Positions 9,143 through 60,511 of a DNA stretch of 64,000 nt are shown piece by piece. The notes under the pieces are model-generated. The model did not search any database and was not told the origin of the DNA. It saw only the letters and a list, made by a program, of their open reading frames with translations. The translations under genes were made by a program, and so were the position numbers. Origin of the DNA: a virus; the IMG/VR virus record IMGVR_UViG_3300042319_002138, positions 1 to 64,000 of that record, one strand, 5' to 3'. The stretch's first letter is position 1; each line of letters starts with the position of its first letter.

Positions 9143-9442
9143 ATGGCGGTAGTAAAAAAAATAGAAAAAGAAGATGGTGTTGTTGAGTGTTTAATTGACT
9201 CATCAAACATTATAATGTCTGAATACGACGAAACTAAAAGTACTTTAGCTATTACATTTAAAGCGGGTACAAAATACCTTTATAAAGAAGTTTTAAAAAG
9301 GGATTATGTTCGTTTTGAAGTTTCTGAAAGCCAAGGAGAAGTTTTTAATAAAACTTTACGTAAATATGTATACGAAAAATTAGATAATATAGACGTTTCT
9401 CCTTTAAAAGAACAAATTAAGGAAATAAAAGGTATTGTTTAA
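9143..9442 (+). CDS. KTSC-domain protein
   Basis: 99 residues with the hallmark layout of the KTSC domain: SSNIIMSEYDETKSTLAIT, then F..GTKYLYKEV...Y..F and a C-terminal SQGEVFNKTL. The domain is a small beta-rich module shared with some lysyl-tRNA synthetase-related and many phage proteins; its molecular role is not established. Its TAA overlaps the stop codon of the convergent downstream gene by three bases, leaving no room for a terminator between them. Confidence 0.75.
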   Translation: MAVVKKIEKEDGVVECLIDSSNIIMSEYDETKSTLAITFKAGTKYLYKEVLKRDYVRFEVSESQGEVFNKTLRKYVYEKLDNIDVSPLKEQIKEIKGIV

Positions 9443-9771
9443 TTTTTTGTGTAAGATACTACATCTACAATATCCATACATGGAGGGTTAACATCTGACT
9501 TACTTTTCGCAATAAAAACAAAAACAGGTCCTTCAGTGTAAACAATATATTTAAGTTCATCTGATATACCACCGTAACCTAAAAATTTAATTGTAATCTC
9601 TTCAAACCCTAGTTCGGATAATTTTCTTGATACTAGGGTTTTTACACTTTCCCCCGTACAATCAATGGAACTTAAAATATTTACAATTTCATTTGCAGTA
9701 TATTCCTGAATTCTTATTTCAGTTAATCTTTGTAACTGTGATTCTGTTAGTATAATATTTTTTCTTCTCAT
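9439..9771 (-). CDS. Small protein with capsid-targeting-like N-terminus
   Basis: 110 residues from the ATG at 9771 (a longer frame to 9849 overlaps the upstream gene and is unlikely). It begins MRRKNIILTESQLQRL: a basic, hydrophobic start followed by an (L/I)-x-E site (LTE, residues 8-10), the pattern shared by a dozen proteins in this window and resembling T4 capsid-targeting sequences cut by the prohead protease. The remainder is an alpha/beta domain (VKTLVSRKLSELGFEEITIKF, FVFIAKSKSD). Five bases separate it from the preceding minus-strand gene. Function unknown. Confidence 0.6.
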   Translation of the reverse strand: MRRKNIILTESQLQRLTEIRIQEYTANEIVNILSSIDCTGESVKTLVSRKLSELGFEEITIKFLGYGGISDELKYIVYTEGPVFVFIAKSKSDVNPPCMDIVDVVSYTKN

Positions 9772-9775
9772 ATTA

Positions 9776-10357
9776 TTAATTTTCATTGTAGTCTTCATCA
9801 TAATCTTCATCATAGTCAGAAGGGTCAAATCCAGATTCTCTTCTTTCAAAATCTTCTACATCTAACCCAGCTTCATAAGCTCTACCTTCTTCAAAGGCTT
9901 TATAATAAGTTGCTTCAACCCCCTCTTCGTAACCTTTTTGATATCCGTCTTGGATAGCTTCGTCATAACCTTCGTCATAACCTTTCTCGTATTTTTCTTC
10001 TAACTTATCTTCCATATCCCGTTTAGCTTCAGAATATCCATCACGATGACCCATATCATACCCTTGGGATTCACCTTCACTATAACCATTTTGACTCCCT
10101 GTATCTATACCCCTTTCATAAGCATTATAACCAAATTCATATAATGATTTAATTAAACTATCTAATTGTATAGTGTTTAAACCAAGATTATAAATAGAAT
10201 TAACTAAAGGACTAGTTTCGGTATTAAAAATATAAAAACCAAAATCATCAAATCTAGATAGTTTATTAGCTATTTCAGATTTTGAGGTTGGTTCAGATTC
10301 CCTAACCCAATCAAAATCGTTGTCTTCTTTTAATATTTTCTTAATTGTATTTCTCAT
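9776..10357 (-). CDS. Gly-x3 repeat protein (Yae1-like pattern) with targeting-like N-terminus
   Basis: 193 residues from the ATG at 10357. The N-terminus MRNTIKKILKEDNDFDW has the (L/I)-x-E site (LKE) followed by an acidic FDW motif also found in two other proteins here. Residues about 85-160 have a Gly roughly every four residues, often as GY-x-x-G (YSEGESQGYDMGHRDGY; YEKGYDEGYDEAIQDGYQKG), like the deca-GX3 motif of eukaryotic Yae1/Lto1. It probably forms glycine-lined packed helices. The C-terminus is Asp/Tyr-rich (DYDEDYDEDY). The ATG at 10363 lies too near the promoter motif, so the third codon Met was chosen. Function unknown. Confidence 0.6.
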   Translation of the reverse strand: MRNTIKKILKEDNDFDWVRESEPTSKSEIANKLSRFDDFGFYIFNTETSPLVNSIYNLGLNTIQLDSLIKSLYEFGYNAYERGIDTGSQNGYSEGESQGYDMGHRDGYSEAKRDMEDKLEEKYEKGYDEGYDEAIQDGYQKGYEEGVEATYYKAFEEGRAYEAGLDVEDFERRESGFDPSDYDEDYDEDYNEN

Positions 10358-10366
10358 TATCATTTA

Positions 10367-10374
10367 ATAAATAT
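10367..10374 (-). promoter_or_regulatory. Candidate late promoter octamer (minus half of palindrome)
   Basis: ATATTTAT on the minus strand, 9 bases before the ATG at 10357. It forms one half of a perfect 20-bp palindrome with the plus-strand copy at 10379. Confidence 0.5.
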
Positions 10375-14310: not shown

Positions 14311-14718
14311 ATGTATTTAATTTATATAAACAGAATTGGTAAAACATTTAAAGGTGAACATATGTTTGAATTTTTATTCTCAGACTCAACTGAATGGGAA
14401 TGGGATGAATCTTGGTATGAATCGTCTGTTATTACCGAAACAAGAGAATTAGCCCCCGACGAAAATATCATTAAACTAGTTGGTTCACTTAAAACTGACG
14501 AATTTGATTTGGAATTAGTTCAAGAAGATGGTGTACGTGATATTTATAATGCTGTAGAAGGTATTATAGCTTTAGGTTGGGAAAAACTACAAGATGATGA
14601 AGATTATCCAGAACAAAGAAGAATATTCCGTTTTGGGGACACAAAAAAATCTGTTGATGAACAACTATACGAGTATGACCTTGTATTAAAATATAAAGAA
14701 AACAAAGTAACAAAATGA
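14311..14718 (+). CDS. Conserved T4-like phage protein of unknown function
   Basis: 135 residues. The opening YINRIGKTFKGEHMFEFLFSD matches, from memory, a protein conserved among marine T4-like phages next to head genes (pattern IG..wKG...YEF.FSD). The rest is acidic with many Trp (STEWEWDESW). Its stop overlaps the ATGATG start of the 647-residue gene by 4 bases, so translation is probably coupled. A start at 14362 is possible but would cut the conserved N-terminus. Function not established. Confidence 0.6.
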   Translation: MYLIYINRIGKTFKGEHMFEFLFSDSTEWEWDESWYESSVITETRELAPDENIIKLVGSLKTDEFDLELVQEDGVRDIYNAVEGIIALGWEKLQDDEDYPEQRRIFRFGDTKKSVDEQLYEYDLVLKYKENKVTK

Positions 14719-16658
14719 TGAGAAAAAAATATTTTTTACGAGAAGCTGATGAGATGGATAAGGAAGCTGTACTTAAATCTGCCGAAGAAAGTTTGGAACA
14801 AGAGAAACAAAATTTAGAAAATAATAAAAAATCTTTAGAGGTAAATAAAGAAACTTTAAAGGCATCTGAAGTTGACGTAGATACTAAATTATCAGCAATT
14901 CAGGGTAATAATAAAGTAATAGCACAAGGTAATAAAGCAGAAGACGTTACCGACCCAAAAACACAAGCAGATGCTTTAACAAGACAAAAACCAGTTCTTA
15001 CAAAACAAGTGAATGGTTTAAAACAACAAAATAAAGAAAAAGAACAAGCCATAAAAAATCAGGAAGAATCTATAAAAAACCAAGAAGATTATATTAAACA
15101 AAAAGAAGATTATATAAAAGACATGGAAAGTGGTATGCGTGAAAGTAGAATTATAAAAGCAAAAGATTTTAAATCTATTGTTGAAAACTATTCCAAAATT
15201 GATTTGTCTGAATCAGATATTATTAATATCATTGTAGAGACTCAAAATCCAATAATGACAAAAGCTAAGATTGTTGAGTCGATACAAAATAAATTAATAT
15301 TTGAAGCGGATATGAATAGAGACGTAAACAGTAGTTTTGAAGGTGGTACAAATGAGTATTCTGAATTGTTAGGTTCAGATTTAGCTAAACAAATGGCTAA
15401 TCAATCTTTTGAAGAAATAGCTAGAGCTATTAGACAAAAAACAGGTAAAGAAAGAGTTACTTTTGATGATGTTCAACAATTAATGTCTAGTTCATTGATG
15501 AATGCGGCTAAAGAAGAATACGCTTACGGTATCGACAGATTAGAAACAAAGGCTGTTGAAATGATTCGTAAACAATTCAACATCCCTGAAGGTGCTGTTG
15601 AATTTGATGCGACCATAACAGGTGTCCCACAAAAAGCGTTAGGTTTACCTAGTGGTACCCCACAGGCAACTATAAACCAAATGTCTAGACAATTGGGTGT
15701 TAAGATTGGTGATATACAAAGAGAAGGTCTTAAATTTGATAAAGGTACTAGTCCTGTTCCACAAGGAAAAACTGAGGTACAAATGAAACCTAAAATTAAA
15801 AGAAGAAAGTACACTAACGCTATGATGCACGGTGCGGCTAGAAAGTCACAAAACATTCACCACATGGACGACCAATTAAGACAGGAGAATCCTAGATTGA
15901 GTCAAAACTACGCTAATCTTATGGCTGCAAATGACGCTTCTTACTGGATGATGAATGATGAAGACATTAAAACACAGGGTAGACAAGGTATTCACGCAGG
16001 TAATGTTAGAGTTAAATTATCTGACCAACCTAATGGAGTTCCTAAAATTATTGCACAAGGTGTGGTATTCCCAGTACTTTTACATGAATTGGCTAAAGGT
16101 GTTATTGAATTAATGTCTTTATGGTCCCTACCTGTTGATGCTGAAGAAAGAAAATATGTCCTAGATAAAACTGATAATTTAGATAATGAAACTAATGATA
16201 TTAGATTAGGTACTATCTTTTGGGAAAAATTTGTAAGACAAATACCAACTGATAATCAAGAAGTTATTTCTTTGACATGGAATATGATGCAAGAACTTTC
16301 AGATGATGAGTTTAATAGTATTATTGAGGGATTATCAAATGATAGAACAGATTCACAAATGAAAGTTCAAAGAATAGCTGAAGAAGCGGCTGAAGAGTTA
16401 AGACGTGAAGCTTCCGACGATACTTTTGGTATGTACGGTGATGATGATGATAAAGATGGTGGTGATGTAGAAACTCCTGATGAGGATGAAGAAGAAACTA
16501 ACCCTACTGTTTTAGGTGGTGAAAAAGAGGGTCCTGAAGAACCTAAAGACCTTAATGATATGACTGATGATGAACTTAGAGGTTTAATGAAGTCAGCTAT
16601 TGAAGATGAGGACTATGAATTTGCTTCAGAAATTAGAGATATCTTAAAAAATAGATAA
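14715..16658 (+). CDS. Large coiled-coil virion/head-associated protein
   Basis: 647 residues. The N-terminus MRRKKYFLREADE-like start (MMRKKYFLREAD) carries an LRE site like other targeting-type leaders. Residues about 15-145 are a Gln/Lys/Glu coiled coil (KQQNKEKEQAIKNQEESIKN). The central part is alpha/beta with KRRKYTNAMMHGAARKSQ and a hydrophobic helix VVFPVLLHELAKGVIELMSL. An acidic linker precedes a C-terminal UVR-like helical hairpin (LRGLMKSAIEDEDYEFASEI). Position immediately before the terminase gene and the leader suggest a protein inside the head or at the portal, but no named homologue is evident. Confidence 0.6.
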   Translation: MMRKKYFLREADEMDKEAVLKSAEESLEQEKQNLENNKKSLEVNKETLKASEVDVDTKLSAIQGNNKVIAQGNKAEDVTDPKTQADALTRQKPVLTKQVNGLKQQNKEKEQAIKNQEESIKNQEDYIKQKEDYIKDMESGMRESRIIKAKDFKSIVENYSKIDLSESDIINIIVETQNPIMTKAKIVESIQNKLIFEADMNRDVNSSFEGGTNEYSELLGSDLAKQMANQSFEEIARAIRQKTGKERVTFDDVQQLMSSSLMNAAKEEYAYGIDRLETKAVEMIRKQFNIPEGAVEFDATITGVPQKALGLPSGTPQATINQMSRQLGVKIGDIQREGLKFDKGTSPVPQGKTEVQMKPKIKRRKYTNAMMHGAARKSQNIHHMDDQLRQENPRLSQNYANLMAANDASYWMMNDEDIKTQGRQGIHAGNVRVKLSDQPNGVPKIIAQGVVFPVLLHELAKGVIELMSLWSLPVDAEERKYVLDKTDNLDNETNDIRLGTIFWEKFVRQIPTDNQEVISLTWNMMQELSDDEFNSIIEGLSNDRTDSQMKVQRIAEEAAEELRREASDDTFGMYGDDDDKDGGDVETPDEDEEETNPTVLGGEKEGPEEPKDLNDMTDDELRGLMKSAIEDEDYEFASEIRDILKNR

Positions 16659-18918: not shown

Positions 18919-20823
18919 ATGGCAGAAGAAAATAAAAATTTAACGGTATATCAAAAACTCTTTTACCTTTTTGGTCAAGGTAATGGTGGTATAAAAGCCA
19001 ATACCATATATAACAAATACGCTTTAGGTGATAGAGATTTAATTGTTACAAAGTCCAGAGAGGAGTTTGAGAAAGAAAAATTACAAAGACAACAACAAAA
19101 ATACTTAGAAGGTCAATGGGCTAAAGTAGATAGTGAATTATATCAAAAAGCGATTTACTATGAAACTTCTAGGGTTGCCTCTTATATGGATTACGAGGCA
19201 ATGGAGTTTACCCCTGAAATTGCTGTCGCTTTAGATATTATGTCAGAAGAATCTTGTACATTAAACGAACAAGGTAAAATTTTAAGTGTTTATTCTGATT
19301 CATCTAGAATTAAAAAAGTTTTAGAAGATTTATTCTTTAATGTAATGGACATCCACTCAAATTTACCGATGTGGACTAGAAATACATGTAAATACGGTGA
19401 TAACTTTCTTTATTTAAAAATAGATTACAGGGATGGTATTGTTGGTTCTTCTCAATTAACAAATATTGATATTGAAAGAAAAGAAACAGGCGTATTCCCT
19501 TTTCAAGCTCAAAAAGAAGAAACAAAAGAAGAAACACAGAAAAAACAAGTTAAATTCTTTTGGAGAGATAAAACCATGGAGTTTAACGCTTGGGAAATAG
19601 CTCATTTTAGACTTTTAGGTGATGATAGAAAATTACCTTATGGTACTTCGGTATTAGAGAAAGTAAGGAGAATATGGAAACAACTTCTTTTAGCAGAAGA
19701 CGCTATGTTAGTTTATCGTGTAACTAGAGCACCTGAAAGAAGAGTATTTAAAGTTTATGTAGGTAACATTGATGATAATGATGTTGAAGCTTACGTACAA
19801 AAAGTTGCTAATAAATTTAAAAGAACACAAAAAGCTGATAGTCAAACAGGTCAGGTAGATTTAAGATATAATACTTTGGCAGTTGACCAAGATTACTTTG
19901 TACCTGTAAGAGATGCTAACGCTTCTAGTCCAATTGAAACGTTGGCGGGTGCGTCTAACCTAGACCAAATTGCAGATATTCAATTTATCCAAAGAAAAAT
20001 GGTTACAGCATTAAGAGTACCAAAAACTTTCCTAGGTTTTGATGATGTCGTTGGTGAGGGTGGTAATTTAGCTATGTTAGATATTAGATTTGCTAGGACC
20101 ATAAATAGAATTCAACAGGCTATGGTTCAAGAGTTAAATAAAATAGCTATTATCCATTTATATATTTTAGGTTTCCACGATGAGTTAAATAATTTTAAAC
20201 TAGTCCTTAACAATCCATCTACTCAAGGTGAAGTTCTTAAAGTTGAACAATGGAAAGAAAAAGTTTTGTTGTATAAAGACCTTGTTAGTGCTGTTGATGG
20301 TGGAATTGCTCCAACATCACACACATGGGCTAAAAAAAATATCTTTAATTGGTCTAATGATGAAATCTTAGAAGATTTAGAACAACAAAGACTTGAAAGA
20401 GCGGCAGCTAAGGAACTTGAAAATACTGCTGAAATTATCAAAAACACAGGATTCTTTAAGAACGTTGATAAACTTTATGGTGAAATTCCTGTTAAATCAG
20501 ATGAAACGGCTGGGACTGAAACTGGTGGTGAAGAAACTGGAGGCTTTGGAGGCGGTGAAGAAGCTGGAGGCTTTGGAGGTTTAGGAGGTGGTGAAGAAGC
20601 TGGAGGCTTTGGAGGTTTCGGAGGCGGTGAAGAAGCTGGAGGCGGTGAAGAAGCTGGAGGAGGTGAAGAAGTTGGTGGTTTTGGTGAAAGCTTTAGAGGT
20701 GATGAGAATGTAATTAATAAATTATTACTTGAAGGTAGAAAGAAAAATGAAGATATTTTAATGATGACTAAGGGTATAGATTTGTTACTTAATGAAGGTG
20801 ATGATGAAATACTTGGTAGCTAA
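18919..20823 (+). CDS. Portal protein (gp20-type)
   Basis: 634 residues; T4 gp20 is 524. Recognisable gp20 features include the N-terminal YMDYEAMEFTPEIAVALDIMSEE, the central CKYGDNFLYLKID and WEIAHFRLL, and RRIWKQLLLAEDAMLVYRVTRAPERRVFKVYVG, then RVPKTFLGFDD. The dodecameric portal nucleates head assembly and is the DNA channel docked by the terminase. Unusual: residues about 534-590 are a Gly/Glu low-complexity insert of repeated GGGEEAGGFGG units before a short helical tail (NKLLLEGRKKNEDILMM), accounting for much of the extra length. Confidence 0.93.
   Translation: MAEENKNLTVYQKLFYLFGQGNGGIKANTIYNKYALGDRDLIVTKSREEFEKEKLQRQQQKYLEGQWAKVDSELYQKAIYYETSRVASYMDYEAMEFTPEIAVALDIMSEESCTLNEQGKILSVYSDSSRIKKVLEDLFFNVMDIHSNLPMWTRNTCKYGDNFLYLKIDYRDGIVGSSQLTNIDIERKETGVFPFQAQKEETKEETQKKQVKFFWRDKTMEFNAWEIAHFRLLGDDRKLPYGTSVLEKVRRIWKQLLLAEDAMLVYRVTRAPERRVFKVYVGNIDDNDVEAYVQKVANKFKRTQKADSQTGQVDLRYNTLAVDQDYFVPVRDANASSPIETLAGASNLDQIADIQFIQRKMVTALRVPKTFLGFDDVVGEGGNLAMLDIRFARTINRIQQAMVQELNKIAIIHLYILGFHDELNNFKLVLNNPSTQGEVLKVEQWKEKVLLYKDLVSAVDGGIAPTSHTWAKKNIFNWSNDEILEDLEQQRLERAAAKELENTAEIIKNTGFFKNVDKLYGEIPVKSDETAGTETGGEETGGFGGGEEAGGFGGLGGGEEAGGFGGFGGGEEAGGGEEAGGGEEVGGFGESFRGDENVINKLLLEGRKKNEDILMMTKGIDLLLNEGDDEILGS
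20518..20690 (+). repeat. Gly/Glu tandem repeat within portal gene
   Basis: Imperfect tandem units of about 30-40 bases (ggcggtgaagaagctggagg) encode GGGEEAGGFGG. The tract is richer in G than the surrounding gene and likely varies in copy number. Confidence 0.8.
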
Positions 20824-20849: not shown

Positions 20850-21650
20850 ATGAACTTTGGTACATTAAAAGATATATTCGTTGAGAAGTTAATAGAATCT
20901 TACATTTCTGAAGATAAATCAGGAAAAGACTTATATAAAAACTTCTTAAAAATACTTAAAGAAAACGAAACTCTTAGAACAACCTTTATTGTTTACAAGA
21001 ATATCGAGGGTAAAACAATAAAAAGTGAAACAGCGGCTAATGAATATTTAAAAGAATCTATTTCTTTATTAGAAAATTTTAGAGGTGAAAAATCCATATC
21101 TACAGAATCAGAAAAATTAATTTCTTTATTAGAAAAATATAATATTGATTTGAGTGGGGTTAAAACAAAAGGGTTACACGAATCTTTACAAAATTTACTA
21201 ACAACCAAGAAAAGTGTTTCTACAATAGACAAACTACATGAATCTAGAACTAATGTTATTTCTTGGTTAATGTCTGATAAAGAAACTATTTCAGAATCAG
21301 AAGATAAATCTTATGTTAGAAAAAATATTGACCCTAGGAAATTTCTAGAAGTAGCTGTAAATAAATTTAATGAAAAATATAATGATTCCTTAACTGAGGA
21401 AGAAAAAAAGATTTTAAAGGTTTTGCGTGAAAATAACGAAGAAAAAACAAAAACTTTAGTGTCTGATTTGGTGAAGGAAACAATCCAACTAGTTAATCAA
21501 CATTTAGATGATTACGGGGACAATGTAACAGTAAAATCAAAACTACTAGAAACTAAAGATGTTATTTACAAGATGAGTGAAAATAACGACAGTTTTAACG
21601 AAAAAGTTTTAAGGCTGTATGAATTGAAAAAGAATCTTAAAAATGATTAG
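20850..21650 (+). CDS. Helical protein in prohead-core gene position
   Basis: 266 residues, almost entirely Lys/Glu/Leu-rich helices (LRTTFIVYKNIEGK, LISLLEKYNIDLSGV, EEKKILKVLRENNEEK). It lies directly after the portal gene, where T4 encodes the prohead core proteins gp67 and gp68, and contains several (L/I)-x-E sites that the gp21-type protease could cut. A core or scaffold component is therefore plausible by position, though no sequence match is claimed. Its 3' end overlaps the holin gene by 8 bases. Confidence 0.55.
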   Translation: MNFGTLKDIFVEKLIESYISEDKSGKDLYKNFLKILKENETLRTTFIVYKNIEGKTIKSETAANEYLKESISLLENFRGEKSISTESEKLISLLEKYNIDLSGVKTKGLHESLQNLLTTKKSVSTIDKLHESRTNVISWLMSDKETISESEDKSYVRKNIDPRKFLEVAVNKFNEKYNDSLTEEEKKILKVLRENNEEKTKTLVSDLVKETIQLVNQHLDDYGDNVTVKSKLLETKDVIYKMSENNDSFNEKVLRLYELKKNLKND

Positions 21651-23886: not shown

Positions 23887-24654
23887 ATGAAAATATTAAA
23901 ACCAGGTGAAGAAGGTACAGGTTTTTTAGTTGAATATGATTCAGGGTATATTAAACCTGAATTAACTTGCAAAGATGGCGTTTGTTCAAACGTTAATTTA
24001 ATTAGAGAATTTAAGTCTGGAATGAATTTCACTATGGACGGGCCTTTACCTGAAAAAATTGAAATATATGCCGTACTACAAAAGTGGGGTGTAGAAAATA
24101 AAAACGGTAGGGTCTACCCTAAAGATATCTTAGAAAGAGAAGCTAAAAGATACCAAGAGTTTATCAAAATGGGTACTTCTTTGGGTGAATTAAACCACCC
24201 AGAATCATCTATTATTGATGGTGAAAGGGTATCACATATGGTAACTGAATTATGGTGGGAAGGCAAAACTCTAATGGGTACATTAGAATTAGATACAACA
24301 CCAGGATATCATAAAATGGGAATTATTTCATCAGTTGGTGATAAAGTTCTTAATATGATTAGAAAAGGTTGGACCGTAGGTATCTCATCTAGAGGTGTAG
24401 GTTCACTTAAAAATGAAGGTGGTAAGAATGTAGTTCAAGATGACTTTGAGTTAATCTGTTGGGATATTGTAACTTCACCATCAACTCCAGGTTCTTGGAT
24501 TTCTTCTGATAAGAATGACCTTAAACCTTATACGGAATCTACTAATAAAAAAATGGATTTATTAAATAGTAGTTCAAATATAATAGCAGATAACCTATAT
24601 TTATCTGAAAATGAATCTAAATTATTAAACAATTTAAATAAATTTTTACTATAA
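23887..24654 (+). CDS. Prohead core protease (gp21-type)
   Basis: 255 residues. The herpes/T4-type protease motifs are present: GELNHPESS with catalytic His104, WTVGISSRGVGS with the nucleophilic Ser (167/168), and FELICWDIVTSPSTPGS (187-203). In T4, gp21 cleaves scaffold, core and internal proteins and the capsid protein after Glu in (L/I)-x-E, then destroys itself. Possible self-processing sites here include NLIREF near residue 41 and LYLSE near the C-terminus. Gene order protease, two small genes, scaffold-like gene, capsid gene follows the T4 head cluster, with insertions. Confidence 0.92.
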   Translation: MKILKPGEEGTGFLVEYDSGYIKPELTCKDGVCSNVNLIREFKSGMNFTMDGPLPEKIEIYAVLQKWGVENKNGRVYPKDILEREAKRYQEFIKMGTSLGELNHPESSIIDGERVSHMVTELWWEGKTLMGTLELDTTPGYHKMGIISSVGDKVLNMIRKGWTVGISSRGVGSLKNEGGKNVVQDDFELICWDIVTSPSTPGSWISSDKNDLKPYTESTNKKMDLLNSSSNIIADNLYLSENESKLLNNLNKFLL

Positions 24655-25876: not shown

Positions 25877-26305
25877 TTAATCTTGGTATTCTTTAGGTAA
25901 TCCCATTCTATCAGCTAATTTTTTAAATAAACCCGAATGTTCATCACTTTGTGGTAAATCTTCCCCAACGGACGCATGTATTAATTCATGTACTATAATC
26001 CATTTTAGATATTCCTTATCTTTTAAAGCCTTTTCTTTAATACCCATCTCTGCGTTTTCACCATTTTTAGGATGATTAAAACCAGCTATTTTCCCTTTTT
26101 TAATAGAGTTATCTATATTAATCTCTATGTTAGGTAGGGTTAATTCTTTGCCTGTTATCTCCCGATAAACATTTTTTAATTTTTTTTCTATAGAAGATTT
26201 TAAGAATTTGATTTCTTCTAAATCCCCATTTTTTTCTGTTAAATGAGGTTTTTCAATTCTTTCACTTAGAATTTGATTTACAATGTCGGACATAAGATAC
26301 TTCAT
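25877..26305 (-). CDS. SprT-like zinc metallopeptidase with targeting-like leader
   Basis: 142 residues. The C-terminal half has WIIVHELIHASVGEDLPQSD (HELIH at 106-110) and a third zinc ligand His123 in EHSGLFKKLADRMGLP, the arrangement of SprT-like zincin proteases. The N-terminus MKYLMSDIVNQILSER carries an LSE site (12-14), resembling the capsid-targeting-like leaders. If packaged and ejected with DNA, it could act early in the host cell, but that is inference. It is the only minus gene inside the head cluster and has its own promoter-like octamer. Confidence 0.75.
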   Translation of the reverse strand: MKYLMSDIVNQILSERIEKPHLTEKNGDLEEIKFLKSSIEKKLKNVYREITGKELTLPNIEINIDNSIKKGKIAGFNHPKNGENAEMGIKEKALKDKEYLKWIIVHELIHASVGEDLPQSDEHSGLFKKLADRMGLPKEYQD

Positions 26306-27751: not shown

Positions 27752-29551
27752 ATGGGATATTTATTAAAATCTGGAGAGGTTGGTAATATCGGATTAAAGC
27801 ACCAAAAAGCTATCCGTGAGGCAACTGTAAACAAATGGAATGACCTTGGGTTCTTAGAAGGACTTACAGGACATGTACGTGAGAATATGGCTTTGTTGTA
27901 TGAAAACCAAGCATCTGTTCTTATCAATGAGACTGACACATCGGGTGGTGCATCTACTGGTTCTTTTGAAACTGTAGTTTTCCCTATCGTAAGACGTGTA
28001 TTCTCTAAATTATTAGCTAACGACATCGTGTCTGTACAAGCGTTGAACTTACCTATCGGTAAATTGTTCTACTTTGTACCTAAGATTTCTGAAAGAATCG
28101 AAGCTACTGAAGGTGAAAGCACAGTTTATAAGCACGGTGAACCAATCGTTACACCTTGTCTTTCTGTAGATAACGCAACTTGTCCTGAGACTACATATGT
28201 AGAATGTGCTAAAAATCTTTACGATAGATTTTACAATGATGGTTTATATGACCAATCAAAAGGTAAAATCACTTTAGTTGTTACTAACGGTGTACCAGTT
28301 ATTTGGACATCTTGTACAACAGGTAACGAATTTACAGATGGTGTATCAGCTTTTGCTGGTGACGGTTCTGTTAGAACTCAAATCCTTGAATTAACAGGAT
28401 TTAACAATAATGGTCAAGGTAGACTTTTAGGTCCTGATGGAAATGAAATGGATACTGAGGCTTTCTTAGCTTCTTTAGCTGTTACTGTCGGTGGTGGTAG
28501 TCTTAAAGATAAAGATGGTGAAGTTATTTACGCTCCAGGTGATGAAGTTCCTGTAAGAGTTGTAACACAAAGATATGGTAAAGGTATTGTTAATTATGGT
28601 GATATTTGTACTGGTGAAGGTATTATGTATCTTGAAGTAGATTTAACTCACCCTAAGTGTATTACTTGTTCATCAGGTACATTTGATGGTTATATCGGAG
28701 CTCAATCTGGTAATACATCTATCGTACCTGGAGTTGGTGTATCTACATTAGGTGGTGTTAGTTTTGTTATCACTTATAGACAATACGCTGACTTAGAAAT
28801 GGAATCTCAAATGGGTGAAGTTTCTTTCGAATTAGATTCTGTAACGGTATCTGTAACTGAAAGAAAACTAAGAGCTACTTGGACTCCTGAATTAGCACAA
28901 GATGTTAGTGCATTCCACAACATCGACGCTGAAGCTGAATTGACAGCATTACTTTCTGAGCAAGTTGCGGCAGAAATTGACCGTGAAATCTTACGTGACT
29001 TACGTACAGGTGCAGCATGGCAATTACGTTGGGATTACAACGGATGGAAGAGACTACCTAACAACAACGGTTACACTCAAAAAGACTGGAACCAAACGTT
29101 AGTAACAGCTATCAACCAAATCTCAGCACAAATTCACAAAGCTACATTGAGAGGTGGAGCTAACTTCGTAGTTGTATCTTCTGAAGTATCTGCTGTTTTT
29201 GATGATTTAGAATACTTCCACGTATCTAACGCTTCTCCTGAGCAAGACCAATATAACATGGGTATCGAAAGAGTAGGTTCACTTTCAGGAAGATATACTA
29301 TCTACCGTGACCCTTACGCACCAGCATACTCTGTATTGATTGGACACAAAGGAAAATCATTGTTAGACACAGGTTACATCTACGCACCGTATGTACCTCT
29401 ACAATTAACACCTACAATGTACAATCCGTTTAACTTTGTACCTGTTAAAGGTATCATGACTCGTTACGCCAAAAAAATGGTGAACAACAGGTTTTACGGC
29501 CATATCCGTGTAGACGGTTTACGTACATTTGACGTAAGAGAATTAAGATAA
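27752..29551 (+). CDS. Major capsid protein (gp23-type)
   Basis: 599 residues; T4 gp23 is 521. The N-terminal 60 residues form a helical delta-like region ending ENMALLYENQASVLINE. An (L/I)-x-E site at residues 58-60 corresponds to the gp21 cut in T4 gp23 (after residue 65), leaving a mature N-terminus TDTSGGAS. FPIVRRVFSKLLANDIVSVQ directly follows, as in gp23. The C-terminal half contains the conserved WNQTLVTAINQISAQIHKAT and VVVSSEVSAVFDDLEYF. A central insert (about 130-340) is beta-rich with Cys residues. The strongest terminator of the window follows, as expected for the most abundant virion protein. Confidence 0.95.
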   Translation: MGYLLKSGEVGNIGLKHQKAIREATVNKWNDLGFLEGLTGHVRENMALLYENQASVLINETDTSGGASTGSFETVVFPIVRRVFSKLLANDIVSVQALNLPIGKLFYFVPKISERIEATEGESTVYKHGEPIVTPCLSVDNATCPETTYVECAKNLYDRFYNDGLYDQSKGKITLVVTNGVPVIWTSCTTGNEFTDGVSAFAGDGSVRTQILELTGFNNNGQGRLLGPDGNEMDTEAFLASLAVTVGGGSLKDKDGEVIYAPGDEVPVRVVTQRYGKGIVNYGDICTGEGIMYLEVDLTHPKCITCSSGTFDGYIGAQSGNTSIVPGVGVSTLGGVSFVITYRQYADLEMESQMGEVSFELDSVTVSVTERKLRATWTPELAQDVSAFHNIDAEAELTALLSEQVAAEIDREILRDLRTGAAWQLRWDYNGWKRLPNNNGYTQKDWNQTLVTAINQISAQIHKATLRGGANFVVVSSEVSAVFDDLEYFHVSNASPEQDQYNMGIERVGSLSGRYTIYRDPYAPAYSVLIGHKGKSLLDTGYIYAPYVPLQLTPTMYNPFNFVPVKGIMTRYAKKMVNNRFYGHIRVDGLRTFDVRELR

Positions 29552-29646: not shown

Positions 29647-30345
29647 ATGGGAAAAAAGAAAATTGAAATACCTGAAGATGTTTTATCAGAAATGATAAGA
29701 TTATATAATGAAGACTATATTGGTACACCTTCATTATCTGATAGATTTGGTTATCATAAATCTATTATTTTAAGAAGTTTTAAAGATAAAGGTGTACAAC
29801 TAGGTCCATCTGGCCGTAAATGGACTGGTGGTAAAGAAGAGGCAGCTAAAAAATATCACTCTAAACCTGAAGTTAAAAAAAGAAAAAGTGATAACCACAA
29901 AATATGGTCAGAAAAAAACCGTGAACATCTACGAGAATACCACACCAAATGGAGAGAAGAAAATCGTGAAGACTTAAATGAGTACAAACGTATCTACGAA
30001 AAAACAAAAAAAGATTCCGACCCATCATATCGATTGGCATGTTATACAAGAACAGCTGTTTACACTTGTTTAAAAGAAAGAGATGTAACAAAATATAAAA
30101 GTACTTTTGATTTATTACCTTATTCTTTGGAGGAATTAATCACCCATTTGGAATCCCAATTTAAAGAAGATATGACATGGGATAACTATGGTGAGTGGCA
30201 TGTTGACCATATTAAACCTATGACTTCATTTAATATCCAATCACCTGAAGATAAATCTTTTCAAGAGTGTTGGTCGTTAAATAATTTACAACCTCTATGG
30301 GGTGTGGAAAATCTTTCCAAAGGTTCAAGATATTTATTAATATGA
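29647..30345 (+). CDS. HNH endonuclease (homing-type)
   Basis: 232 residues. The N-terminal third resembles a helix-turn-helix (YNEDYIGTPSLSDRFGYHKS), the middle is a basic helical linker (KNREHLREYHTKWREENRED), and the C-terminal part is an HNH module: GEWHVDHIKPMTSF (His185, Asp187, His188), then WSLNNLQPLWGVEN (Asn212/213). This layout fits phage free-standing homing endonucleases that invade conserved genes. It lies directly downstream of the capsid gene. Its stop overlaps the next gene's ATG by 4 bases. Confidence 0.8.
   Translation: MGKKKIEIPEDVLSEMIRLYNEDYIGTPSLSDRFGYHKSIILRSFKDKGVQLGPSGRKWTGGKEEAAKKYHSKPEVKKRKSDNHKIWSEKNREHLREYHTKWREENREDLNEYKRIYEKTKKDSDPSYRLACYTRTAVYTCLKERDVTKYKSTFDLLPYSLEELITHLESQFKEDMTWDNYGEWHVDHIKPMTSFNIQSPEDKSFQECWSLNNLQPLWGVENLSKGSRYLLI
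30330..30337 (+). promoter_or_regulatory. Candidate late promoter octamer
   Basis: GATATTTATTAATATG inside the 3' end of the HNH gene, 4 bases before the ATG at 30342. Confidence 0.45.
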
Positions 30346-30689
30346 ATCTACGTAAGATTATAAAAGAAGAGATTAATGATTTTGATTGGATTCCCAAAAA
30401 AAGTATTATAACCAATGAGTTTGATTTTGATGGGGAGTTAAATACTGACGAGGCTAATCAAAATTTTAAGAATGAAGTTAATGGGTATTATGCTATTTCA
30501 ACACCAAAGGGTAAGGAATCTCCTGAAACAATAATAGCTTATGGACCTGTATTCTATATAAAACAAGTTTTAAGATATATTGATAGTTTAAACGACCCTT
30601 ATTGGGGTGGCATGGATTTATATCTTGGGGTTGTTAAATACTCTAGGAAAGATAAAGATAACGTATTATCTTTAATAAAATATTATTAA
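30342..30689 (+). CDS. Small protein with KIIKEE...FDW leader
   Basis: 115 residues from the ATG at 30342 (a longer frame runs back into the HNH gene). It starts MNLRKIIKEEINDFDWI, with IKE at 7-9 and an FDW motif almost identical to the next gene and to the minus-strand gene at 9776. The rest is a compact alpha/beta domain (YYAISTPKGKES, ETIIAYGPVFYIKQVLRYI). Function unknown; inferred packaged cargo. Confidence 0.6.
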   Translation: MNLRKIIKEEINDFDWIPKKSIITNEFDFDGELNTDEANQNFKNEVNGYYAISTPKGKESPETIIAYGPVFYIKQVLRYIDSLNDPYWGGMDLYLGVVKYSRKDKDNVLSLIKYY

Positions 30690-30690
30690 T

Positions 30691-31335
30691 ATGAATCTTA
30701 AAAAAATCATAAAAGAAGAGGTTGACGAATTTGATTGGGCTCGTGAAATAGAACCAAAATGGGAACCCCAAGTCGGTGATAAATTTATTTGTAAACATGG
30801 TTTTAATAGGAATAGTATGTCAGATTATTATGGGGGTGCCGCATATGTGGAAGGAAAAGTCTATACTATATATAGAATTACACCCGACATTCATAATGAT
30901 GATAATGTCATATTATGGGGTAAAGAAGATGAAGATAACAACGGTGTTTATAAAAGAGCCACTGAACTTTATTTTGAATCTCTAAGTGAATCTAAAGAAG
31001 ATGATTTTGAATGGGCTAGAGGTGAGGTTATTTTTACAATTAATGATATTATTGGTAAAAAATGTACTTATAGAGAAAATAATTTAGTAGACCTAGAACA
31101 AGAGTATGAAATCTCCCAACTTAAAAGAGGTGACGTTGATTTGGGTCCCATTAGATATAATGATAAGTATTCTTATTGGGTGGTGACTAGATTAGAAGGT
31201 GATGATGCTTTTATTAATTTAGCTGATGGTACTGAATTAGATTATAAAATAGAAGAAATAGAACAATACGTTAATTTAGGTGTATGGGTTTTATTTGATG
31301 ATAATGGTAATATTTTAAACGATTTTTATAAATAA
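30691..31335 (+). CDS. Two-domain protein with duplicated F(D/E)W leader motif
   Basis: 214 residues starting MNLKKIIKEEVDEFDWAREI, IKE at 7-9. The motif recurs internally as SLSESKEDDFEWARGEV near residue 105, again behind an LSE site, so the protein looks like two leader-plus-domain units fused. The first domain resembles a small beta barrel (VGDKFICKHGF...VEGKVYTIYRI...NVILWGKE); the second is similar in style (VIFTINDIIGKKCTY, YWVVTRLEGDDAFINL). If the prohead protease cuts both sites, two mature domains would be released. One base separates it from the preceding gene. Confidence 0.6.
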   Translation: MNLKKIIKEEVDEFDWAREIEPKWEPQVGDKFICKHGFNRNSMSDYYGGAAYVEGKVYTIYRITPDIHNDDNVILWGKEDEDNNGVYKRATELYFESLSESKEDDFEWARGEVIFTINDIIGKKCTYRENNLVDLEQEYEISQLKRGDVDLGPIRYNDKYSYWVVTRLEGDDAFINLADGTELDYKIEEIEQYVNLGVWVLFDDNGNILNDFYK

Positions 31336-50594: not shown

Positions 50595-50656
50595 TTTTAT
50601 AATATATAAAAATTTTAGTTAAATTAAAGTCTAACTAATTTTTATTTTTTACATTT

Positions 50657-51415: not shown

Positions 51416-52094
51416 TATATTTTTGTTTTACGTAATCTATTTCTTCATTTATATTTTTATTGTATCTACTACTAATTTGAAATTGGTGTATTCTATTACT
51501 TATTAAAATATCACTAACTACCTGTGGTAAACCATATTTTTTATATAAATGGTAATAATACTCACAATCCATTAACATTGTTAAATTCTCATCAAAAAAA
51601 ACAATTTCTTCATTAATAAAGGAAAGTACTGAAGGTGAACTAATTGTGTTAACACCATACAATATTTGGTCATTCCAAGAAGGTACCATTTCCCTGTTAA
51701 AAGTAAGACCATCATTTGTGTGATTACAACCATTAACTAACCATTTACAGTTGGTTTCTTTAAATGTATTGTGTATTATTTGTAATGCGTTATCGTCCAC
51801 AAATAGGTCATCCTGGAACATTACTTTTATAATTTCCCCATCAGCATTTTTTATGGCTATATTTGTATTAGCAGGACCATTGCCTCGGTCATACTCATTT
51901 TTAATATAAACAATATCAAAAAATATATTATAAGATTCTACAAGTTTTTTGATTCCATCATCTACACTATGGTCAGAAATAATAACGTTAAAATTTTTAA
52001 AACTTTGTGTTTTTATAGAATTTAATAAAGCCTTTAAATAATGCAGACCATTACCATACTGTTCCCAAGTGGGTATGCAAATACTTATTTTCAT
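51402..52094 (-). CDS. Glycosyltransferase, GT2
   Basis: 230 residues from the ATG at 52094, which overlaps the upstream stop as ATGA (a longer frame to 52106 is less likely). MKISICIPTWEQYGNGLHYL opens the GT-A fold; VIISDHSVDDG, then FQDDLFVDDNALQII (DxD-like region) and MDCEYYYHLYKKYGLP follow. Inverting GT2 enzyme of unknown donor; part of the island. Confidence 0.82.
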   Translation of the reverse strand: MKISICIPTWEQYGNGLHYLKALLNSIKTQSFKNFNVIISDHSVDDGIKKLVESYNIFFDIVYIKNEYDRGNGPANTNIAIKNADGEIIKVMFQDDLFVDDNALQIIHNTFKETNCKWLVNGCNHTNDGLTFNREMVPSWNDQILYGVNTISSPSVLSFINEEIVFFDENLTMLMDCEYYYHLYKKYGLPQVVSDILISNRIHQFQISSRYNKNINEEIDYVKQKYNDNV

Positions 52095-52849: not shown

Positions 52850-54387
52850 CCTCTATTTTGATATATTGCTTGTAATTGTTGTTGTACCTGTTCTGGTGTT
52901 GCTAAAGGTGTTTCTGTGGGTGTAATCCCATGTTTATTTTTGTACCACATAGTACCTTTTCTAAAATTCTCATTCCATGTTGGTGTTCTAGCAATAGTAC
53001 TTTCAGCTATTGAGTTCGGTATATCAGTTAAGTAATTCCAACTTTCATGAATATCGGCAAAATACCAAAAAGCTGGGTGATACATTTTTTTAATAGCTTG
53101 GTATGTGTGTTCAACATGTTCCCACGCGTTTTTAAACATTGGGTCAAAACCACCGATATCTTCTAATACTTTTCTTTGGTAATAAGAAAATGCCCCAACA
53201 CAATTAGGGTACAATGCTATTTTTACACCCGTATTTAATACATCACCATTTTCATAAGGGATAATCATCCTAGGGTTAGGTTTACCATCTACATCCTCTC
53301 TTTCAGATAAATCTGTAAATCCCTTACTACCAATCTTATTAGCTGGTCCGTGTAAAGCAAAATTTAAATGTTTAATACCAGAAATTAATGAGTGTTTAAT
53401 ATATTCTTTAAAAACATTTTCATCTTTAATTAAGATATCATCTTCCATAATAAAAATATGTTCACAACCTTTTTCCATTAGATAATTAATAGCTGTTGTT
53501 TTTGCTGCACCTACAGACATATTTGTTTTATGCTGTATGATATGTGCATCTTCAGGGTAAGCGTCTTCAGGGTAAGGTGTACCGTCATTTACAATAACAA
53601 AATTCTTAACCCATTTTGGAACTGTAAAAGCACTTTGCCTAATTCTATGTTCAGCATTATAAGTAACCATACCAAAACCAATAGAATCAGGGTCAAACTC
53701 TAACTTTTCTTCAAAAGTTTTATTATTTGATAGTCTTACAGGTAAGTTATCTTTATATCTTTCTTCAAATTTAATTTTATTATCTTCCCATTGTTGATTG
53801 GTCATACCTACTGATAAATGGGTTACTCTAATTAAAGTCGTTAAACCAATTTTAACACCATCTAAATAATTAGGGAAACAAAAAGCTAAATCATAAAAAT
53901 GGAATCCATCAAAAGATTCGTCAAAAGTATGTTTAATTTTTGTTTTATCTATAGCAAAAAACAAACCATCTAAAACAACCATTTCAGTAATTTTATTACC
54001 CTGGTCTTTAGAATAATAGTTAGTCCATTTTTTACCTTCGTGTTGGTGTGATACAATACCATTCATAGATTCTTTCAAAGTCCACCATCTACCGTCTAAT
54101 AAATCTGTTGTACCAGCTATCCCTAAAATTCCATATTCAGGATTTTTATTAAATAGTTTTTGTAGTTTTTGGCCCCAACCCTTAGTTTCAAAAATTAAAT
54201 CATCGTGACAAAAAACAACTATATTATTTTTAGCCATATCTAATCCTTTATTATAAGCTTGTGGTAATGACATTTCACCATCATTAACAATTTGTATAAC
54301 ATCTACGTTATGAATACCACAAGTTTTTTTAATTTGTTCGATATACTCAGGGTTATCTTTTCTTGTTGAATATACTACTGTAATCAT
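52846..54387 (-). CDS. Two-domain glycosyltransferase
   Basis: 513 residues with two GT-A units. Domain 1 (1-215): MITVVYSTRKDNPEYIEQIK, SLPQAYNKGLDMAKNNIVVF, CHDDLIFETKGWG. Domain 2 (about 240-490): IGFGMVTYNAEHRIRQSAFT, FVIVNDGTPYP, IFIMEDDILIKDENVFKEYI. Domain 1 resembles the DUF4422/LpsA-like type and domain 2 resembles GT2. A single protein able to catalyse two sugar additions, or one donor and one recognition domain, is possible. It overlaps both neighbours by 4 bases. Confidence 0.78.
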   Translation of the reverse strand: MITVVYSTRKDNPEYIEQIKKTCGIHNVDVIQIVNDGEMSLPQAYNKGLDMAKNNIVVFCHDDLIFETKGWGQKLQKLFNKNPEYGILGIAGTTDLLDGRWWTLKESMNGIVSHQHEGKKWTNYYSKDQGNKITEMVVLDGLFFAIDKTKIKHTFDESFDGFHFYDLAFCFPNYLDGVKIGLTTLIRVTHLSVGMTNQQWEDNKIKFEERYKDNLPVRLSNNKTFEEKLEFDPDSIGFGMVTYNAEHRIRQSAFTVPKWVKNFVIVNDGTPYPEDAYPEDAHIIQHKTNMSVGAAKTTAINYLMEKGCEHIFIMEDDILIKDENVFKEYIKHSLISGIKHLNFALHGPANKIGSKGFTDLSEREDVDGKPNPRMIIPYENGDVLNTGVKIALYPNCVGAFSYYQRKVLEDIGGFDPMFKNAWEHVEHTYQAIKKMYHPAFWYFADIHESWNYLTDIPNSIAESTIARTPTWNENFRKGTMWYKNKHGITPTETPLATPEQVQQQLQAIYQNRG

Positions 54388-58160: not shown

Positions 58161-58742
58161 TTATTGTACCCTTTTAACTTTACTATTTAAAGTTTTTAAG
58201 ATTTTTACGTTTTCTTGAATCATTTTTTTATCAAAATATTTTTCAACAATACTAGGTAATGCTTTTGATATTTCCTCAGCAATCATTTGTCTAATTACAT
58301 TTTCATTTAGTGTACTAGAATTTTTTGCTACAGGTTTTTTTTGTTCTACTATATGTCTTTTTTGTTCCATATAATCAAACTCGTCTTCTTCAGAATAGTA
58401 TTCTTCTTTTACACTACCGTATTTTGGGTTTATTTCTTTGATGTCCTCATCATCCAAAGAAAATGTCCCAACAGCATCTGGTTGTGGAATTGGGTTTTCT
58501 AACATCGCCCTCTGAATTTCAGGTGGTAATTTAGATTCTTTAACTCTTTGTTTATACATATCACTTCCTATTGCTACTTTAGGTACAGAATTTCTAACAG
58601 GTTCACTAATTTCTTCACTTAAAGAAGCTTGTCTACTTGTAACATTAGATTCTAAAATTGCCATGTCAGTTTTATCAAACTGTCTAGCTCTTTCATCGAT
58701 AACTTTCGCTTTTTGTAGTATTGCTTTTAATCTTGGGTCCAT
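58161..58742 (-). CDS. Conserved phage hypothetical protein, 193 aa
   Basis: Begins MDPRLKAILQKAKVIDERAR and ends with a helical/coiled segment (NENVIRQMIAEEISKALPSI, VEKYFDKKMIQENVKILKTL). The middle is disordered and acidic (YYSEEDEFDYMEQ). The shape, an N-terminal short helix, linker and C-terminal helix, suggests an assembly or scaffold partner. It shares one base with the upstream gene's stop. Function unknown. Confidence 0.55.
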   Translation of the reverse strand: MDPRLKAILQKAKVIDERARQFDKTDMAILESNVTSRQASLSEEISEPVRNSVPKVAIGSDMYKQRVKESKLPPEIQRAMLENPIPQPDAVGTFSLDDEDIKEINPKYGSVKEEYYSEEDEFDYMEQKRHIVEQKKPVAKNSSTLNENVIRQMIAEEISKALPSIVEKYFDKKMIQENVKILKTLNSKVKRVQ

Positions 58743-59128
58743 TATTCAAATGTTGCTTGTTTATAAATTTTTATCATACTCCTATCTCCGTTAGGATTAT
58801 ATTTTGGTACGCCTGATTTTCTATCAGAAATAGGTTCATAAAACGTTTGACCCGTTTTAATCCAATTGCTAATTCTATCTACCCTAAAAGTTTTCCAACC
58901 TTCAGGTTCGGTATCAGTAACCCCTTGAGTTTGATAGACTCTAATTATTGGGTTATTGGCTAAAGATTCTCCATAAACATAAGGTTCAATCCATCTCCAA
59001 CCTCTTACTTCTGTTTCATCACCCTCATAATAAATTCTAGCAACCTTATGTTTTTCAATAGAATCTTCTATTTCATTTGGTCGTACTTCTTCTAATATAA
59101 TATTGCTTAATAGAGAGTAAAGTTTCAT
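58742..59128 (-). CDS. WYL-like domain protein with targeting-like leader
   Basis: 128 residues from the ATG at 59128 (TTG at 59137 overlaps the upstream gene). The N-terminus MKLYSLLSNIILEEVRPNEI has an ILE site. KVARIYYEGDETEVRGWRWI followed by EPYVYGESL, RVYQTQGVT and GWKTFRVDRISNWIKTG matches the WYL-domain pattern (RI.Y...G.R.IEPY..G....N..LR.YQ...GWK.FR.DRI), a nucleic-acid or ligand sensing fold. No helix-turn-helix is present. Co-transcribed with neighbours. Confidence 0.65.
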   Translation of the reverse strand: MKLYSLLSNIILEEVRPNEIEDSIEKHKVARIYYEGDETEVRGWRWIEPYVYGESLANNPIIRVYQTQGVTDTEPEGWKTFRVDRISNWIKTGQTFYEPISDRKSGVPKYNPNGDRSMIKIYKQATFE

Positions 59129-59130
59129 TA

Positions 59131-59499
59131 TTACCAATATTGTTCCCCGTAACTATAATTATAATAATTACTACCAGCTGTTCCAGGTTTGTATTTATTA
59201 CCAGAAGTATACAACAACACATTTTTACGTTGTATATCTATCAAAGTACCAACACCTGAATTAGGTGCGGTTTCTCCTCTACCATAGTTATCACCAGTGC
59301 TTTGTGCGTTAGGGTGTTGAGCGTCGTATCTCTGTCCATTAACATTCTTATAATCGTTAATTACAGTTTGTTGTGCTCTACTAATATCACCTTGTGCTTT
59401 TAATGATGGTAATTGATTAGTAACTGCCCCACCATTAGGGTTTAGTTCTTGTACTGAGTCTGCGTCCGTTAATATAGGAGCTATTGATTGTCCAGGCAT
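59131..59499 (-). CDS. Conserved small structural-type protein, 122 aa
   Basis: Begins MPGQSIAPILTDADSVQELN with a Gln/Gly/Asn-rich, low-hydrophobicity sequence and a C-terminal Tyr-rich end (AGSNYYNYSYGEQYW). A central stretch GVGTLIDIQRKNVLLYTSGN is the only beta-like core. It overlaps the upstream gene by 19 bases. Possibly a virion component; not recognised. Confidence 0.5.
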   Translation of the reverse strand: MPGQSIAPILTDADSVQELNPNGGAVTNQLPSLKAQGDISRAQQTVINDYKNVNGQRYDAQHPNAQSTGDNYGRGETAPNSGVGTLIDIQRKNVLLYTSGNKYKPGTAGSNYYNYSYGEQYW

Positions 59500-59978
59500 A
59501 ATTTTCTGTTTTTATCAATTGTTGTTATTAGGTTTTCCATTAACCTCATATTATAAATACCTTCTTGTCTTAAAATTTTATTTGTATCTGAGTCATGTTT
59601 TTCTGTGTCTATTCTAACATTACCACCAATTTTTTCTTTTTGGTATTGGTTTTTCATACCCACGTCACTCATAGCATCTTGTTTACCTTTAATACTTTGT
59701 CTAGCTTTATTCAAGGTATGTTCTATCCAATTCTTCATTAAGGTTCCACCATTTAATAGGTAAGATGTATGTTTATTACCCTCATTATGACCATCAAAAA
59801 AATTCTTAATTAATTTTAATTGTTCATAGGTGATAGAATCTTTATCTACCAATTCTTCCAACCTTTGATATCCCTCAACATCTTTAGCACCTTTATATGC
59901 ATTAAAAATTTTTTTTAAATGATTTTTTATTTCCTCATCAATATCAAAAGATTGTCCCTGTAGTTTGGAATTGGCCAT
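59481..59978 (-). CDS. Helical hypothetical protein, 165 aa
   Basis: Begins MANSKLQGQSFDIDEEIKNH; helical and charged (LKKIFNAYKGAKDVEGYQRL, EQLKLIKNFFDGHNEG, EHTLNKARQSIKGKQDAMSD). It shares one base with the preceding gene's stop and overlaps the next by 19 bases, so all belong to one operon starting at 60511. Function unknown. Confidence 0.55.
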   Translation of the reverse strand: MANSKLQGQSFDIDEEIKNHLKKIFNAYKGAKDVEGYQRLEELVDKDSITYEQLKLIKNFFDGHNEGNKHTSYLLNGGTLMKNWIEHTLNKARQSIKGKQDAMSDVGMKNQYQKEKIGGNVRIDTEKHDSDTNKILRQEGIYNMRLMENLITTIDKNRKLCLDNQ

Positions 59979-60511
59979 TATCTAATTTTCTTTTTAAGTT
60001 CATTCTTATATTCAACAGGGATGTCTGTCATATCCATGTCTAAAAGATAATTTATTATAATAGCCTTTTCTTCACCAGTGGCATCATTTTTACCAATTAA
60101 ATCTCTAAGTGTTTCTACTTTTCTAATTAAAATAGGATTAGAGTCTTTAATAGTATCTAAATTTTGGATTCCGTTTAATCTTAAATCAGGTTGTTTAGTA
60201 ACAAAATCCCTATCAAAATCTTTTTTAGTAAAGATATCCTCAATAAGTTCATCCATTTTTTTTGCTGAACCCTCTTCTACTCTTTTTTTTAAAGATTTTT
60301 TATTTTTCTTTTTTGTTAAATTCGGTTTTTTATCGGACATATATCTCCATCTGCCGTAATTATTATACCTACTAAGTCCCTGCATTTGATTTTGCTTATC
60401 GTCAGTAGTTAGTTTAGAAGCTGTAACATCATCGTTACTATTAATAGGCATATCACCCTTAATTTTAGCTCCCCCTTTGGTTATAAATTCACGTAATAAT
60501 AAAATAGCCAT
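59978..60511 (-). CDS. Hypothetical protein with targeting-like leader, 177 aa
   Basis: Begins MAILLLREFITKGG: a hydrophobic start with an LRE site at 6-8. The middle is basic and disordered (KKPNLTKKKNKKSLKKRVEE); the C-terminal part is helical (PILIRKVETLRDLIGKNDAT, IIINYLLDMDMTDIPVEYKN). First gene of the five-gene operon behind a promoter-like octamer. Function unknown. Confidence 0.55.
   Translation of the reverse strand: MAILLLREFITKGGAKIKGDMPINSNDDVTASKLTTDDKQNQMQGLSRYNNYGRWRYMSDKKPNLTKKKNKKSLKKRVEEGSAKKMDELIEDIFTKKDFDRDFVTKQPDLRLNGIQNLDTIKDSNPILIRKVETLRDLIGKNDATGEEKAIIINYLLDMDMTDIPVEYKNELKKKIR

Follow-up and report, generated by a model that had tools for sequence, protein, structure and literature searches.

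Candidate capsid-targeting leaders on unrelated proteins of a T4-like virus

The stretch of DNA analyzed here (the window) comprises bases 1-64000 of a 226,303-base IMG/VR record of a T4-like virus (IMGVR_UViG_3300042319_002138; G000 below), and contains a T4-type head module with genes for terminase (16741+; genes are named by a coordinate and strand), portal, protease, scaffold and gp23 (Table 1). Both inside and outside this module, genes for otherwise different proteins begin with short leaders ending in (L/I)-x-E, which an earlier reading of the sequence (the original prediction) had taken for a candidate capsid cargo system. All 13 N-termini listed there are found at their coordinates and on their strands, including the internal starts 9771-, 30342+ and 59128-, and the gp21-type protease and capsid propeptide site on which it drew are both present. 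The listed set is real but makes up less than half of the total: about 25 genes in the record have a leader, some 15 of them beyond the window (70439-, 84040+, 163965-, 168264+, 171523+, 184627+, 186485+, 187855+, 210298+, 215639-, 220952+, 222315+, 222856+ and others).

The original prediction also expected the motif to be enriched at N-termini, and when tested against shuffles and internal windows it is above chance, if modestly so. Residues 2-30 contain (L/I)xE in 40 of the 73 window proteins, compared with 26.9 ± 3.7 after shuffling within each N-terminus (p = 0.0005); for the whole record the first 30 residues contain it in 117 of 248 proteins, compared with 82.0 ± 6.5 after shuffling (0/2000 shuffles) and with 28.6% of internal windows. 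Among all spaced residue pairs, LxE has the strongest N-terminal enrichment (89 vs 50 expected, z 5.6), and inside proteins it shows none. About two thirds of the N-terminal matches are nevertheless expected by chance; thus the bare motif does not identify a leader and was rejected for that use, and the evidence was taken from whole leader units instead. Two other matches were set aside, the ClpA-like 6316- (IIQE) as an ordinary domain N-terminus and 9143+ (IEKE) as a chance match. The core [IVL][IL][KRQN]E[EDSNQ] is about tenfold denser in N-terminal than in internal windows, both in the record (18/248 vs 15/2025) and in the relative G002 (24/364 vs 20/2619), and a 9-residue leader profile trained on the leaders of other contigs scores at least 9 bits on 18 of 260 N-termini of the record, where 1.4 are expected.

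The leaders fall into two well-supported, interchangeable types of about 11 and 22 residues and a related third. The short type, M-x(1-6)-I-(K/R)-(K/R)-(I/V)-(I/L)-(K/R)-E, spans about 9-14 residues and ends in KKILKE (e.g. MKNLIKKILKE); the long type, MKK(I/V)I(R/K)LTESDLTRIVKRVIKE (form MKKIIRLTESDLTRIVKRVIKE), spans 22 residues and includes, farther upstream, an (L)(T/N)E that may act as a second site; the third starts M(K/R)IIITE(S/N)Q (e.g. MKIIITESQ). It is to the second possible site of the long type that the original prediction had assigned the leader ends of 24725+ and 34262+: LNE is indeed present at residue 9 of both, but it is internal, and the leaders end at IRE-22 and IAE-22. Exact-pattern scans of IMG/VR found the long type in at least 120 stretches and the short type in 66, while the reversed short pattern, which served as the chance control, was found in 0.

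With residues numbered P3-P2-P1 before the candidate cut and P1' onward behind it, both main types show the same constraint. The long-type pattern fixes residues up to 14 only, and among the matches listed every one of the 127 distinct long-type leaders closes with (I/L/V/M)-x-E, at residue 22 in 118 and, by way of a 4-residue insert, at residue 26 in nine; among the 118, P3 is I94, L19, V4, M1, P2 is free and P1 is Glu. Information content in the same set is 3.86 bits at P1, 1.4 at P1' and 0.2-0.8 from P2' on. For the short type the last residue was left free and all pattern-fetched proteins were excluded, and Glu then occupies P1 in 111 of 128 N-terminal cases, compared with 28 of 180 where the motif lies internally (P3 L87/I21/V3). 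Asp is found at P1 in none of the 127 listed long-type leaders and in one of the 128 short-type cases. This absence is informative because in T4, where 10 residues suffice for targeting, Asp at position 10 permits targeting and blocks processing (PMC9026906).

The proteins behind the leaders are diverse, which bears out the claim that near-identical leaders stand on otherwise different proteins: the 191 full-length leadered proteins, from other viral contigs, form 125 clusters of unrelated bodies (at least 125 overall). When one member per cluster is aligned jointly, the sole invariant columns are M1, K2 and E22, of which M1 and K2 are imposed by the patterns and E is imposed in the short-type members. 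Leaders are also exchanged on related bodies. In the family encoded by the gene behind the capsid gene (family X, RYMFFSNLEQ...), orthologs have short or long leaders on one syntenic body, E22 is the sole invariant leader column among 17 sequences, and the member in relative G004 is leaderless; behind the short-type leader of 25003+ the body starts GGYDDKN, and the G002 homolog has the long type before AGYDDFQ. In a second family (Y) the (I/L)xE junction is present in 24/24 sequences, followed mostly by Ala, with leaders of 8 to 56 residues; (L/I/V/M)xE precedes the body in 18 of 20 orthologs of 14715+, with leaders of 8 to 43 residues; and an ortholog of 34262+ whose body is just 32% identical retains both sites. 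Leadered (218179-, 220952+) and leaderless (33402-, 224203+) members occur side by side in a family of four paralogs with a (T/S)KWC motif, whose window copy occupies 33402-34142 (-); its predicted structure is confident (predicted local distance difference test, pLDDT, 82) and has no match among solved structures. Between leader genes the same codon is used in 322 of 484 pairs, compared with 294 expected if codons were independent; the near-independence indicates that the leaders are not recent DNA copies and that conservation acts at the protein level.

Most leadered bodies have no Pfam match. A phage lysozyme domain is present on leadered 70439-, a DHH match on 71473- is weak and below cut-off, and leadered bodies of relatives include LysM, peptidoglycan-binding, AAA/zeta-toxin kinase and GP88 domains; by eye only, the C-terminus of 184627+ resembles PD-(D/E)xK nucleases, and the leader of 84040+ precedes a phosphatase-like body (FDWDDNI). 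Of the two domains named in the original prediction, the SprT-like metallopeptidase exceeds the Pfam cut-off (27.1 vs 25.6 bits), whereas the WYL-like protein 59128- falls below it (20.8 vs 21.8 bits).

The same site closes the capsid propeptide, which ends in (I/L/M)-(N/T/S)-E with Glu in 79/79 relatives (P3 I52/L26/M1) and is followed by a variable, gapped stretch. Among the leader-bearing contigs of at least 100 kb, Peptidase_S77 is found in 21 of 30 and a T4-type portal in exactly those 21; TerL and a complete capsid gene are likewise missing from the remaining nine contigs, which we presume to be fragments. In Bacteroides phage crAss001, a different kind of Bacteroidota phage, the leader profile has no match and (L/I)xE is not significantly enriched (34 vs 29.0 ± 4.0).

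Comparison with T4 shows that the resemblance lies in the design and not in the leader sequence. The T4 record has the pattern in known substrates of its protease: ipII and ipIII (MKTYQEFIAE/A, a slash marking the cut), gp24 (MAKINELLRE/S; see PMC9026906) and gp23 (FLTE/AEIG). Like the T4 capsid-targeting sequence (CTS) of IPI-IPIII and Alt, a short N-terminal propeptide that gp21 cuts (10-19 residues in T4, about 10-20 for a leader of this kind; here 9-14 and 22, or 26), the present leaders end in (L/I)-x-Glu with Glu at P1 (P3 mostly I/L, some V/M), stand as one leader on unrelated mature proteins, and occur together with a protease of gp21 type (S77) and a capsid protein that shares their site. 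They are not homologous to MKTYQEFIAE: the leader profile has no match in the T4 segments examined, and there is no likeness beyond the terminal site, although leader sequence is not known as a defining feature across phages. Unlike T4, with four bearers, each phage here has about 25, with two or more interchangeable types of leader, of which one has two sites, enzymes among the putative cargo and more than 125 families across relatives. The propeptides of T4 gp24 and gp23 are likewise cut by gp21 at (L/I)xE, and P1' is Ala/Ser/Thr in the capsid proteins here and mostly Ala in family Y; unlike the putative cargo here, gp24 and gp23 are shell proteins. In phiKZ and SPN3US, too, several inner-head (ejection) proteins have N-terminal propeptides cut after Glu, and SPN3US gp53 and gp54 have the same 15 N-terminal residues before bodies that have diverged (PMC5694885). 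Propeptides there are mostly longer than 100 residues with an A/S-x-E motif, and eight SPN3US proteins were found processed; the present leaders are short, with I/L at P3. A tblastn search of phages and plasmids with a 23-residue leader gave no match, the query being too short to inform, and a search of the available literature found no paper on the leader strings; the CTS papers that it found cover T4, P1 and phiKZ-like phages.

It is thus highly probable, as judged from sequence, that the leaders represent a greatly expanded, modular version of the T4 CTS system, and they appear to form a standard set of exchangeable tags conserved across phages at the protein level. In the mechanism that we infer, a leader would form a short amphipathic N-terminal helix by which the new protein docks to the core of the prohead; there the gp21-type protease would cut after the Glu of (I/L)-x-E, freeing the mature body into the head space; and the body would be packaged along with the DNA, probably to be ejected with it when the next host is infected. 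Any gene could acquire such a leader. The capsid-targeting part of the original prediction agrees with the P1/P3 signature, the capsid site, the leader swaps and the co-occurrence of S77 and T4-type portal. Cutting after Glu is the step that we hold with the greatest confidence, being nearly sure of it; packaging into the head is very likely; ejection into the host, a further step along the proposed pathway, is probable.

Several observations weigh against this interpretation. Leaders of these types are few in the relatives G001 and G004 and in cultured phage immuto, and the sampled contigs share phylogenetic history and are not independent of one another. Genome-wide, orthologs in the nearest relative retain an N-terminal (L/I)xE at most slightly more than an internal one (0.73 vs 0.60), and farther relatives show no excess. 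Finally, the head operon includes several of the leadered genes, whose products may be core parts rather than cargo.

The leader genes also share an upstream feature. TATTTAT is found within 40 bases upstream of 9/17 leader genes vs 42/231 other genes in the record, 19/28 vs 74/336 in G002 (p = 1e-6), 7/11 vs 54/214 in G003 and 4/6 vs 17/76 in G008; the portal and protease genes have it upstream as well. The element ATATTTATA(A/T) is strand-specific, lies mostly 4-7 or 12-18 bases before start codons, and occurs at 52 of 248 genes (25 in the reverse sense), among them 18919+, 23887+, 25877-, 30342+, 34262+ and 59978-. These positions suggest that the TATTTAT element is promoter-like and that leader genes are expressed jointly with virion genes. 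The T4 late promoter is TATAAATA; identity with it is not claimed, TATAAATA being the reverse complement of TATTTATA and the orientation therefore wrong.

The last of the contrary points leads to the alternative that survives best, namely that the leaders are real gp21 propeptides and most of their bearers are core or scaffold proteins consumed in head assembly, as are T4 gp67 and gp68, and not delivered cargo. The leadered 24725+ and 25003+ lie between the gp21 and capsid genes, and such sites are also found in the scaffold and in the 14715 and 20850 families near the portal; the product of 24725+ is possibly a core protein, because in G003 a long-type leadered gene occupies the same slot between gp21 and scaffold. 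As an account of most bearers, however, this alternative appears unlikely, given 125 unrelated body clusters scattered over genomes and variable between phages, and SprT, lysozyme, LysM/peptidoglycan-binding and AAA/zeta kinase domains that are unexpected in core proteins. We give far less credence to the idea that the leaders stay uncut and serve as helices for targeting or interaction, be it with a membrane, a replication compartment or a partner protein, the terminal Glu doing no more than cap the helix. The leaders do resemble amphipathic helices, and the family X model has a helix at residues 9-24 and then a break (mean pLDDT 59, leader 64-75), but a helix cap would tolerate the Asp that is so scarce at P1, few residues are admitted at P3 and P2 is unconstrained, as in gp21 sites, the capsid protein carries this site too, and conservation ends directly after P1. 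That the leaders have no function as protein and arose through duplication of 5' gene ends (promoter and start region together) or through codon preferences close to start codons in an A+T-rich genome is hardly credible, since, for all that TATTTAT is often upstream and N-termini are rich in Lys and Ile, synonymous leader codons are nearly randomised, half of the leader genes are without the element, conservation across phages is at the protein level with a sharp end at Glu, and crAss001 is without such leaders.

Table 1. Head genes and leadered genes in the window (a slash separates leader and body; profile, leader profile score)
Coordinates	Strand	Feature	Evidence
9439..9771	-	Third-type (ITES/LTES) leader, MRRKNIILTESQLQRLTE/IRIQEY...; two LTE sites, residues 8-10 and 16-18	N-terminal type common to record 84040+ and many relatives
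9776..10357	-	Short-type leader, MRNTIKKILKE/DNDFDW...	Profile 20.0 bits
11958..14234	+	758-aa protein, leader ...NIKPVIKE/EKMSL; orthologs (I/L/V)NE at corresponding place	Profile 8.0 bits, orthologs
14715..16658	+	647-aa head-region protein, leader MMRKKYFLRE/ADEM	Ortholog family
18919..20823	+	Portal gp20, T4 type	PF07230 4.3e-74
20850..21650	+	266-aa protein behind portal gene, MNFGTLKDIFVEKLIE/SY; orthologs LLAE/S, ILGE/A at same place; absent from the original prediction	Orthologs
23887..24654	+	Prohead protease, gp21 type (Peptidase_S77), presumed cutter	PF03420 3.5e-27, 95.6 bits
24725..25003	+	92-aa protein, long-type leader MKKVIKLNEADLEKLVQKIIRE/EGEQ; sites LNE-9, IRE-22	Profile 12.8 bits
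25003..25527	+	174-aa protein, short-type leader MNIRKIIKE/ELLKEVGGYDDKN	Profile 12.4 bits, G002 homolog
25877..26305	-	SprT-like metallopeptidase, leader MKYLMSDIVNQILSE/RIEKP; ortholog MNYILSDIIKEIISE/KVKNP	Pfam PF10263 4.1e-6; profile 11.3 bits
26444..27721	+	Scaffold gp22-like, N-terminal KSIIDE/AFMEA; presumed docking partner in core	Position, orthologs
27752..29551	+	Major capsid protein gp23, propeptide site INE-60	PF07068 7.1e-70
30342..30689	+	Short-type leader, MNLRKIIKE/EINDFDW	Sequence
30691..31335	+	Short-type leader, MNLKKIIKE/EVDEFDW	Profile 8.0 bits
34262..34690	+	Long-type leader, MKKIIKLNEQDLERLVKKVIAE/EENSS	Profile 20.4 bits
34690..35082	+	Candidate leader MKRRDKLKVIQE/ANQRLEEKFLNE/KAIGF; ortholog sites ILE, LNE	Ortholog 86% identical, so weak evidence
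58742..59128	-	WYL-like (below cut-off), leader MKLYSLLSNIILE/EVRPN; orthologs IVE/A, ILE/S, LNE/S	Pfam, orthologs
59978..60511	-	177-aa protein, leader MAILLLRE/FITKG; ortholog MNILFLNE/FIGKN	Orthologs

Other features of the record were observed in passing. Judged by its capsid protein (42-44% identical across roughly half of its length), the record is nearest, among named phages, to Flavobacterium phage immuto, Microcystis phage Mel-JY01 and an uncultured 484-kb phage. Immuto (NC_055915) encodes a gp21-type protease and candidate leaders at 60009+, 81525+, 102294+, 103366+ and 113188+, with putative cut sites ILSE-13, LIKE-12, IIKE-12 and ILKE-10; at 103366-103806 (+) a protein that is kinase-like by eye (GEGDYGAVF loop) stands behind the short-type leader MISIYNILKE. 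Small genes outside the window (152635+, 153329+, 154781+, 185533+, 185729+) encode fragments of the major capsid protein, 154781+ holding the propeptide and INE cleavage site and 185729+ residues 357-417; most have similar KHKL/KFKL-like C-termini, such matches also occur in contigs G035, G036 and G040, and the products are possible decoys or assembly modifiers. A glutamine synthetase gene (22297-23376, +; PF00120 4e-15, PF03951 6e-11) sits in the head cluster, flanked by portal on one side and protease on the other. The block 45330-54387 (-) holds genes that, to judge by eye from their translations, encode sugar-nucleotide enzymes, methyltransferases and glycosyltransferase-like proteins, which suggests glycosylation of the virion or host surface, and three tandem large proteins with a near-identical N-terminus (MSDNTRLVGLKKDKN...; record 107014+, 108997+, 111022+) are probably tail-fibre variants.

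Except in a few models, little has been learnt of what phages inject besides DNA, and finding packaged proteins has so far taken proteomics; a sequence tag for packaged proteins would make finding them a search. If the leaders are such a tag, it would point, in many uncultured phages, to candidates for first-minute effectors and anti-defence proteins, and would offer new protein-loading tags for phage engineering. On balance we favour the wider view, held less firmly than the capsid-targeting role itself, of a whole lineage of large T4-like environmental phages with a universal, exchangeable capsid-loading tag, in which fusion to one of a few standard leaders would turn the product of any gene into virion cargo. 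Each phage would then eject, along with its DNA, tens of different effectors taken from a common pool that exceeds 125 families and includes cell-wall enzymes, nuclease- and kinase-like proteins and metallopeptidases, with the tag serving as a marker for injected effectors in sequence data. The internal-protein arrangement of T4 would then be, as these results suggest, one small case of a much larger system.

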